DNA from: a virus
Length of the DNA stretch: 36,765 nucleotides
Reading direction: 5' to 3' (one strand)
Virus record (IMG/VR): IMGVR_UViG_3300042514_000228
Location: 1-36,765 of that record
Shown here: one piece after another, positions 10,738 through 12,032 of the stretch
Numbering within the stretch: position 1 is the stretch's first letter
Layout of the letters: the number at the start of each line of letters is the position of its first letter
The notes under the pieces: generated by a model
Told to the model about the DNA's origin: nothing
Database searches by the model: none
Seen by the model: the letters and a program-made list of their open reading frames with translations, nothing else
Program-made: the position numbers and the translations under genes

Positions 10738-10760
10738 AGTAAGGGTATAGGCTTACTTTT
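10738..10760 (+). terminator. Rho-independent terminator
   Basis: AGTAAG (10738-10743) pairs with CTTACT (10752-10757), with an 8-base loop and a T-run after. It ends the 9097-10721 gene set before the non-coding control region. Confidence 0.65.
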
Positions 10761-10770
10761 TAGCGAATAA

Positions 10771-10802
10771 GTCAGTTCATAGGCTGACGTTTACTATATT
10801 TG
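10771..10802 (+). promoter_or_regulatory. Promoter TATATTTG with adjacent dyad GTCAG/CTGAC
   Basis: TATATTTG (10795-10802) is a full match to the Bacteroidetes -7 element. Immediately upstream, GTCAG (10771-10775) and CTGAC (10784-10788) form an inverted repeat with an 8-base spacer, placed where a -33 region or operator would be. No ORF follows for nearly 400 bases, so the promoter most likely makes a non-coding RNA. Confidence 0.6.
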
Positions 10803-10805
10803 CAC

Positions 10806-10934
10806 CAACAGTACCCGAACGCTTACCATTCAGAACAGCGTACCAGTTAGGGTCTTTTACCAGCTAACGGATAGCATCCAATGGCCGACCCGTTGTGAGG
10901 TTTGTGGTTATCCTTGCAACGGGTTTCTTTTTTT
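10806..10934 (+). ncRNA. Candidate structured non-coding RNA, unit A
   Basis: This is a transcript of about 129 nt expected from the promoter at 10795. Visible helices are ACGC/GCGT (10819-10822 with 10838-10841), GTTAG/CTAAC (10846-10850 with 10864-10868) with an inner GGT/ACC, and a strong terminator hairpin. The hairpin pairs ACCCGTTG (10888-10895) with CAACGGGT (10917-10924), continues inwards through TG/TG wobbles and AGG/CCT, and is followed by TTCTTTTTTT. The only frame in the region crosses terminators and promoters and is not credible. Whether it acts as an antisense, regulatory or leader RNA is unknown. Confidence 0.6.
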
Positions 10935-10952
10935 ATGATTGTAATTTCAATT

Positions 10953-10989
10953 GGTTACAATTTGTAACCGACTCATTTTTTTATCTTTG
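10953..10989 (+). promoter_or_regulatory. Promoter with palindromic operator in the -33 region
   Basis: TTG (10962-10964), 17 bases, TATCTTTG (10982-10989) fits the Bacteroidetes promoter pattern. The -33 part lies inside a perfect inverted repeat, GGTTACAATTTGTAACC (10953-10969), with 8-bp arms around one base. A dimeric repressor bound here would cover the -33 element. This promoter drives unit B. Confidence 0.7.
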
Positions 10990-10993
10990 TATC

Positions 10994-11100
10994 AATCAAA
11001 CTTGGCATGCCCCTGATTTAAGCACACTTTGCCGAGTCTTTTCGACCCGTTGCTTTAGGTTCGTGATTCACACGGACGGCAACGGGTTTATTTTTATTTA
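10994..11100 (+). ncRNA. Candidate structured non-coding RNA, unit B
   Basis: This is a transcript of about 107 nt expected from the promoter at 10982. ACTTGGCA (11000-11007) pairs with TGCCGAGT (11030-11037; 8 bp, one G-U). The terminator hairpin pairs ACCCGTTGC (11045-11053) with GCAACGGGT (11079-11087), contains an inner hairpin GTTCGTG/CACGGAC (11059-11065 with 11071-11077), and is followed by a T-rich tract. The outer terminator arm is the same as in unit A, so the units may be related. No credible ORF is inside. Confidence 0.6.
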
Positions 11101-11185
11101 TTTTCGCTTTTGTAAGTTTTATGCTATTTATATAGAAAACGAATTGTACTTTTGTCCTATCAAATAACCACAAAAACAAACCACA
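11097..11185 (+). promoter_or_regulatory. Promoter/leader module, copy 1
   Basis: This is an 89-base module preceding a small gene and repeated at 17388-17477. It contains a 24-base block (11097-11120) identical to 17388-17411 and beginning TTTATTTTCGC. After a divergent stretch comes the -7 element TACTTTTG (11147-11154), and then a leader that matches the other copy at 25 of 31 positions, including the shared core CAAATAACCACAAA. The -7 to ATG distance is 31 bases in both. The upstream block lies near -44 to -20 relative to the -7 element and may be an activator or repressor site. Confidence 0.7.
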
Positions 11186-11400: not shown

Positions 11401-11664
11401 ATGACCACACTAACCCAACTTGAAACCGCGCTAATTGACACGCCAAACCTTAGCGAATTGGCAAAACTAAAAGGACAAATTGCAGCTGTAAGGTTGCAAG
11501 CCGAAACCTCCGCACACATCGAATGCGACAAAGTAACGCTGGGCGAACTTGCACGTGCTTTGCAAGTGGAAAGCCATTGGAACGGGCGCACGTATAGCCT
11601 AACGATTGAAAACGGGGCGCATTTTGTAATACTTCAAACGCCTGTAATTGTAAGCGCAAAATGA
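11401..11664 (+). CDS. Hypothetical protein
   Basis: This is an 87-residue protein beginning at an ATG with an AC-rich leader (AAACCAAACCACG). The first half is helical ('LIDTPNLSELAKLKGQIAAV'); the second half has 'VTLGELARALQVESHWNGRT' and a beta-rich end. No family is recognised. Its stop overlaps the next start (ATGA), so it is co-translated with the DnaA-IV-like protein and may work with it. The 68 bases before it hold no gene or clear hairpin. Confidence 0.5.
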   Translation: MTTLTQLETALIDTPNLSELAKLKGQIAAVRLQAETSAHIECDKVTLGELARALQVESHWNGRTYSLTIENGAHFVILQTPVIVSAK

Positions 11665-12032
11665 AAATGACAGCAGAACAACTGGCCGCCATAAAGCAAC
11701 GGCTAAGTGAGCGCAAATTCCTACCCGATGTAAGTGTTGAGGGGCTATGTATTGCCGCAATGCGAGTACATCAGATAGAATGGGAGCAGATAACAAGAAA
11801 GTCGAACCTTCCGCACGTTGTGAAATGTCGGGAACAAATAGCCTACGTTATCTACACCTACATCAACCAGTCTACGTACTTGGACATGGGTAAGTTGCTA
11901 AATAGAACCCATGCTACAATAATCCACAACGTAAGGCAAGCAAGGGCATACATATCAATTGAGCCAAAGTATAAGCATCAAATTGAAACAATAGTAAAGT
12001 TGGCAAAAGAATGGGAACAAGAGCAGAAATAA
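11661..12032 (+). CDS. DnaA domain IV-like DNA-binding protein
   Basis: This is a 123-residue protein whose C-terminal half resembles the DnaA DNA-binding domain. 'VVKCREQIAYVIYTYI' corresponds to the first helices ('R...R..A.yl'), 'YLDMGKLLNRTHATIIHNVR' corresponds to the signature with 'GRDHSTVLH', and another helix follows. In DnaA this domain reads 9-bp boxes at the replication origin. There is no AAA+ ATPase, so it would bind DNA without opening it. It lies upstream of an array of 9-mers at 12522-12761, which makes it a natural candidate to bind them. It is translationally coupled to both neighbours. Confidence 0.7.
   Translation: MKMTAEQLAAIKQRLSERKFLPDVSVEGLCIAAMRVHQIEWEQITRKSNLPHVVKCREQIAYVIYTYINQSTYLDMGKLLNRTHATIIHNVRQARAYISIEPKYKHQIETIVKLAKEWEQEQK

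Follow-up and report, generated by a model that had tools for sequence, protein, structure and literature searches.

What are the two small non-coding transcription units that a phage carries in tandem between positions 10795 and 11100 of its DNA? The window, a stretch of 36,765 nucleotides that makes up an IMG/VR phage record, encodes a portal, a terminase, methyltransferases, a DUF3987 helicase/primase-like protein and a metallophosphoesterase. The terminase is closest to those of Flavobacterium phages (50% identity) and the portal to those of Nonlabens phages, and the host inferred from these proteins is therefore probably a Bacteroidota bacterium. A small ORF upstream of the replication genes (11661-12032) has a weak match, below the cut-off, to the DnaA C-terminal DNA-binding domain (PF08299, E 6e-6). 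The initial annotation had described two tandem promoter-hairpin-terminator units at 10795-11100, which are present as claimed, and had given their RNAs no identity as AbiF antitoxin mimics. AbiF, the proposed ancestor of Cas13, is a widespread abortive-infection toxin restrained by a small RNA. On the combined grounds of sequence, structure and synteny, the two RNAs, A and B, are relatives, in orphan form, of the antitoxin RNAs that go with Abi_2/AbiF HEPN ribonucleases. Very probably they serve as a two-type decoy that would be expressed by the phage and neutralise host AbiF by mimicry of its RNA antitoxin, much as pseudo-ToxI does for another toxin.

The order along the window is promoter, A, terminator, promoter, B, terminator, promoter and genes, with the RNAs, their terminators and the -7 boxes on the plus strand. 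Promoter A has the Bacteroidetes-type -7 box TATATTTG at 10795-10802. Promoter spacing and the terminator place the predicted transcript A at 10806-10934, with a conserved 5′ end, CAACAGTA. Its core (10808-10858) is an AbiF-antitoxin-like hairpin with an outer stem, an inner stem ACGCU/AGCGU, a loop and a 3′ bulge; an extra hairpin module found in some relatives only (10863-10885) and a terminator with a T-tract (10887-10934) follow. Promoter B has its box, TATCTTTG, at 10982-10989, and transcript B is predicted at 10993-11100 by the same reasoning. The abiF-like core hairpin of B (10999-11039) consists of an outer stem of 7 bp, an inner stem of 3 bp, an 11-nt loop and the 3′ bulge CACUUU, and ends before a terminator with a T-rich tail (11045-11100). 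Both terminators do use the same outer arms, as first noticed in the initial annotation: the ACCCGTTG/CAACGGGT hairpins lie at 10888-10924 and 11045-11087, and there are exactly two such hairpins in the whole window and none in 100 shuffles. A third -7 box, TACTTTTG (11147-11154), belongs to the downstream operon.

The relatives of this phage, located via the metallophosphoesterase and DUF3987 proteins of the window, have A and mostly B as well in the corresponding gap, with A alone in some of them (L086, L004). By itself the TAxxTTTG motif is not enriched in the window (42 observed versus 44.6 expected). At a fixed distance upstream of A it is present in 14 of the 15 listed relatives, with TTTG invariant in all 15, and at a fixed distance upstream of B in 12 of 12. 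The original proposal of two independent, paired non-coding sRNA genes with their own promoters and terminators was right, and the genes are conserved in relatives. A coding ORF at 10895-11167 was rejected: it spans both units, in a stretch where whole modules and swapped terminators set the relatives apart. A search for tRNA and tmRNA genes found none, Rfam gave no family in the window at gathering score, and weak Rfam matches to DapZ, RUF20, NsiR1 and HDV were taken as chance. Searches of cultured phages and plasmids by DNA similarity with the letters of A or B, or with the A consensus, returned nothing usable.

Several elements around the two RNAs vary. An operator-like inverted repeat, AGTAAGGGTATAGGCTTACTT, read from the sequence at 10738-10762, is repeated in relatives and is replaced by a different inverted repeat in L063, L003 and L090; another, GTCAGTTCATAGGCTGAC (10771-10788), adjoins promoter A. 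Two unrelated versions of the repeats before promoter A occur among relatives (GTAAG..CTTAC or GTTCA..GTGAAC), like swapped operators, and a repressor of the phage or of the host may control A. The inverted repeat TTGGTTACAATTTGTAACCGA upstream of promoter B (10951-10971), terminator- or operator-like, was found in L063 only among the relatives read. Between the A core and its terminator lies a variable hairpin cassette (10863-10885 in the window, about 10130-10170 in L179, about 8090-8125 in L185), of which three distinct modules occur in different relatives and which others lack. These modules could mimic other RNA partners; the idea that they are further B-type hairpins was dropped, as neither those of L185 nor those of the window gave a match. 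Another conserved intergenic element, GCACCAGTTAGGTAGTG, is found downstream of the RNAs in L003 (2002-2018), L004 (7486-7502), L016 (4602-4618), L019 (3975-3991), L177 and L179, and none was seen in the window region. In IMGVR 3300033995_000490 (L181 and L187) the B element stands at both ends of the record, which is therefore probably a circularly permuted, wrapped genome.

Single-sequence folding is remarkable for B (z-score -5.1) and unremarkable for A (-1.9, and -0.7 for the A core alone); the proof for A is comparative. In the window family both RNAs covary, with a score reached by 0 of 500 shuffles each. A compensatory change in A turns the inner stem ACGCU/AGCGU into ACGCA/UGCGU, and in B there are double changes in both stems. 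Twenty-one B-type sequences keep the 10-bp structure in 96% of cells, with 29 double-change cells (0 of 500 shuffles). The wider A family, with 42 sequences, has 90 double-change cells and is 98.2% paired (0 of 500 shuffles). Its 7-bp outer stem varies almost freely by compensation, and the inner stem, the loop and the 3′ bulge are almost invariant. The outer stem of A in the window is shortened and partly mismatched.

The identity of B follows from hairpins elsewhere. A degenerate B-core pattern found an equivalent hairpin in seven Bacteroidetes chromosomes, and in five of them the next gene, 12-28 nt downstream, is Abi_2 (PF07751, E 1e-43 to 1e-59). These are L193, L194 (Kaistella jeonii), L195, L198 (Pedobacter westerhofensis) and L199 (Puia dinghuensis), and the core copies that adjoin Abi_2 in Kaistella, Pedobacter, Puia and two Bacteroidetes MAGs are near-identical. 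L196 and L200 are chromosomal orphans of the B type. Loci found with relaxed patterns (L197, L201-L211) had no flanking stem and were discarded as chance. The B-core scan also identified two unrelated phages, L190 (75 kb) and L192 (53.5 kb), with an orphan B-type hairpin whose outer stem is completely different in sequence and still complementary; in L190 a T-tract directly follows the hairpin, which may double as a terminator. The Rfam abiF family RF03085 has a consensus of a 6-bp outer stem, a 3-bp inner stem, an 11-nt loop and a 6-nt 3′ bulge. B matches this layout, with a full-length alignment in the relative L179 and support from covariation. RF03085 scores the B copies of relatives at 17.8-31.2 bits (31.2 in L179, positions 1 to 37; then 28.2 and 23.8) and chromosomal copies at 28-33 bits (two loci with confirmed Abi_2, one orphan), all below the gathering cut-off of 37 bits; it does not match the window's own B. 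B is therefore classed as abiF-like and not as a strict RF03085 member. The model R2 gives the window's B core 63.6 bits, with the window in its training set.

A is linked to the same toxin family by two models. R1, built from the window family and scoring 78 bits on the window's A core, finds matches in 12 of 345 Bacteroidota genomes. Eight of the 12 have a terminator and then, about 50 nt downstream of the RNA, an Abi_2 ORF; a ninth contig ends within the first codons of such an ORF. R3 is a covariance model made from 42 orphan copies of unrelated phages only, with the window family excluded. It scores 46.6 bits on the window's A (E 4.4e-10). Of 30 Bacteroidota Abi_2 loci selected by the Pfam protein model alone, it matches the upstream RNA in 21. 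The B model adds four of the 30 (L229 and L246, and weakly L239 and L245). Abi_2 follows 13 of 18 R3 matches in the class Bacteroidia and two of three in Flavobacteriales. An A-linked Abi_2 protein matches PDB 8vz6 (262 bits, E 6e-77), which is PbAbiF in a structure that includes its ncRNA (PMC12737573, PMC12373285). The topology of A is like that of abiF RNA, but its inner stem has 5 bp and its bulge 5 nt; no Rfam match was found for this subtype, and RF03085 does not match A. In L218/L372 a chromosomal A-type RNA without Abi_2 stands beside a type I restriction HsdR gene, an orphan A in what is likely a defence island.

The initial annotation had called paired phage sRNAs of this kind rarely described in Bacteroidetes phages. 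A-type orphan RNAs turn out to be common in uncultured phages: a relaxed A-core pattern finds toxin-less copies in at least 115 IMG/VR contigs of 38 flank clusters, where about one would be expected, as estimated from the information of the pattern and the size of the collection. Fifteen orphan A copies have their own TAxxTTTG box, against 2.9 expected. In twenty-nine of the 115 the start lies no more than 40 nt from the 3′ end of a tRNA gene, in most cases one for tRNA-Met or tRNA-Thr. Such tRNA-adjoining copies (L259, L263, L267, L332 and others) lack a promoter box and may be expressed within tRNA arrays; they may also have another role.

Relatives of both types lie directly upstream of Abi_2/AbiF in chromosomes, and the phage RNAs combine the sequence and structure of a host antitoxin with absence of the toxin. 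The window has no Abi_2, and none was found in a further 19 phage records carrying A or B (17 of relatives and the two unrelated B phages) or in 50 whole orphan-A records; some of these records may be incomplete. Unlike AbiF antitoxins of the AbiFr/RCd22 type, the RNAs in these records have no toxin gene of their own alongside. The split between orphan and complete forms is not absolute, as complete RNA-toxin units occur in prophages: the viral contig L391 (IMGVR_UViG_2524614553_000001) has a complete pair of a PbAbiF-type RNA and an Abi_2 gene. Six further viral contigs carry a PbAbiF-type RNA sub-type (CCGCUUCCC..AGA..GCGCGCUCAG), with Abi_2 not seen in the sequence examined.

The suggestion that the two RNAs are related or duplicated holds in its first part. 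Models of both types match chromosomal intermediates, and the B model weakly matches the spots of R3 in L238, L230, L235, L374 and L375. Because the two models meet at the same spots, A and B seem to be the two extremes of one superfamily of AbiF RNA antitoxins, distant members that are joined via these intermediates. They are not recent duplicates, as the B model gives the window's A only 4.9 bits. Across relatives, terminators have moved between the slot of A and that of B, and this swapping, not recent duplication, accounts for the shared arms in the window. A clean split of Abi_2 into A-linked and B-linked clades was not found; the labels are clustered but need five and four changes on a tree with long branches, so type specificity may not be strict.

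AbiF is a HEPN single-strand RNase that is kept off by direct binding of its RNA (PMC12373285; PMC12737573), and in C. difficile RCd22 neutralises AbiF in trans as well, again by direct binding (PMC12373285). The bulge nucleotides responsible for inhibition are given as C32 and U38 (PMC12737573). A phage RNA that comes without the toxin is therefore expected to lower AbiF activity. There is a precedent in the pseudo-ToxI RNA of phage phiTE, which suppresses ToxIN (PMC3475682). For A and B we infer a course that leads from transcription through AbiF binding and neutralisation to a benefit for the phage. As stand-alone, toxin-less mimics of two sub-types of the Bacteroidota RNA antitoxin found upstream of Abi_2/AbiF, they would be transcribed in infection as separate units, with transcription of each starting at a Bacteroidetes-type promoter and stopping at a strong terminator. 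The hairpin, with its stacked outer and inner stems, conserved loop and conserved 3′ bulge, would bind the host AbiF dimer like the cognate RNA. The bound decoy would then keep the RNase off as the host's own antitoxin falls, so that abortive infection is blocked, and the pair of RNAs would deal with two antitoxin types. Several points count against this proposal: AbiF loci of the A or B type are rare in Flavobacteriales, to which the host may plausibly belong; RF03085 does not match the window's own B; and the outer stem of the window's A is shortened and partly mismatched.

Other readings have to be weighed against the decoy. Some temperate phages, such as L391, carry RNA plus toxin, so a complete system may conceivably have lost its toxin; AbiF is also known on prophages in C. 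difficile (PMC12373285). A and B might then be remnants of complete AbiF units, either functionless or providing immunity against co-resident AbiF prophages. This is unlikely, since the promoters, terminators and compensatory changes of both RNAs are kept in many relatives, and Abi_2 is missing from the window family as well as from all 50 orphan-A records; conserved parts and consistent absence of the toxin point to selection on the RNA alone.

Still less probable is an ordinary base-pairing role in trans, with A and B as sRNA regulators of phage or host mRNAs, as the initial annotation implied. A non-coding pair with its own promoters and terminators would suit such a role, but the letters conserved across independent phage lineages are those of the stem-loop and bulge of an Abi_2-linked RNA family, and pairing with a particular mRNA would leave the association with Abi_2 unexplained. 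An equally slight chance is given to cis-acting leaders that attenuate the downstream phage genes. The hairpin and terminator upstream of genes, and the precedent of RCd22, which lowers abiF transcription by early termination (PMC12373285), speak for it. However, the downstream operon has its own conserved -7 box at 11147 and does not need B as its leader, the genes downstream vary between relatives, and most of the orphan A copies found elsewhere lie in unrelated contexts, including tRNA arrays.

If the decoy reading is true, phages defeat AbiF by decoy RNAs on a large scale, RNA mimicry works generally against HEPN toxins under RNA control, beyond the case of ToxIN, and anti-AbiF RNAs in phage genomes can readily be annotated with the A-type model. 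It is reasonably likely that A and B belong to a widespread, undescribed class of counter-defence RNAs: toxin-less AbiF-antitoxin mimics in dozens of phage lineages, often in tRNA arrays, combined in some Bacteroidota phages into exchangeable two-type cocktails, with variable modules perhaps mimicking other RNA antitoxins. Phage RNA-antitoxin mimicry and phage-borne abiF RNA are known already; the tandem two-type arrangement, the A subtype and its breadth appear to be new. In the literature searched, neither phage RNAs directed at AbiF nor an orphan A-type phage family nor a tandem two-type arrangement is reported, although the AbiF/Cas13 study of Zilberzwige-Tal et al. may overlap. A work cited by title in PMC12737573 reports that a region of the lactococcal phage sk1 protects phage 712 from AbiF. 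This region was considered as a carrier of such an RNA and set aside, as sk1 has no RF03085 or R3 match.

Among known systems, A and B are closest to abiF RNA (RF03085) and AbiFr, as in PbAbiF-AbiFr (PDB 8vz6) and the AbiFCd-RCd22 pair of C. difficile. They share the small hairpin with an outer and a short inner stem, a loop of about 11 nt and a single-stranded 3′ bulge, as well as the own promoter and terminator, and their nearest relatives stand directly upstream of Abi_2 genes. They differ in that the phage has no Abi_2, that B falls under the Rfam cut-off and A is unmatched by RF03085, and that two sub-types form tandem separate units. Phage-borne abiF RNA was annotated earlier in the cyanophage S-CREM1, a lytic phage, and in three phage genomes in Rfam, with no AbiF target given (PMC9964418). 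In S-CREM1 there is one RNA, a single RF03085 match of 51.6 bits, in a phage of another host phylum. The pseudo-ToxI of phiTE is likewise a non-coding RNA from a phage, similar to a type III antitoxin of the host, and it demonstrates that such mimicry can suppress abortive infection (PMC3475682). Its toxin is ToxN and not a HEPN AbiF, its RNA has a pseudoknot-repeat fold, and its activity has been tested, whereas A and B are known from sequence. Racr RNA anti-CRISPRs are phage decoy RNAs that mimic CRISPR repeats. Like these, A and B would be phage decoys that imitate the RNA partner of a defence nuclease, in their case the antitoxin RNA of AbiF.
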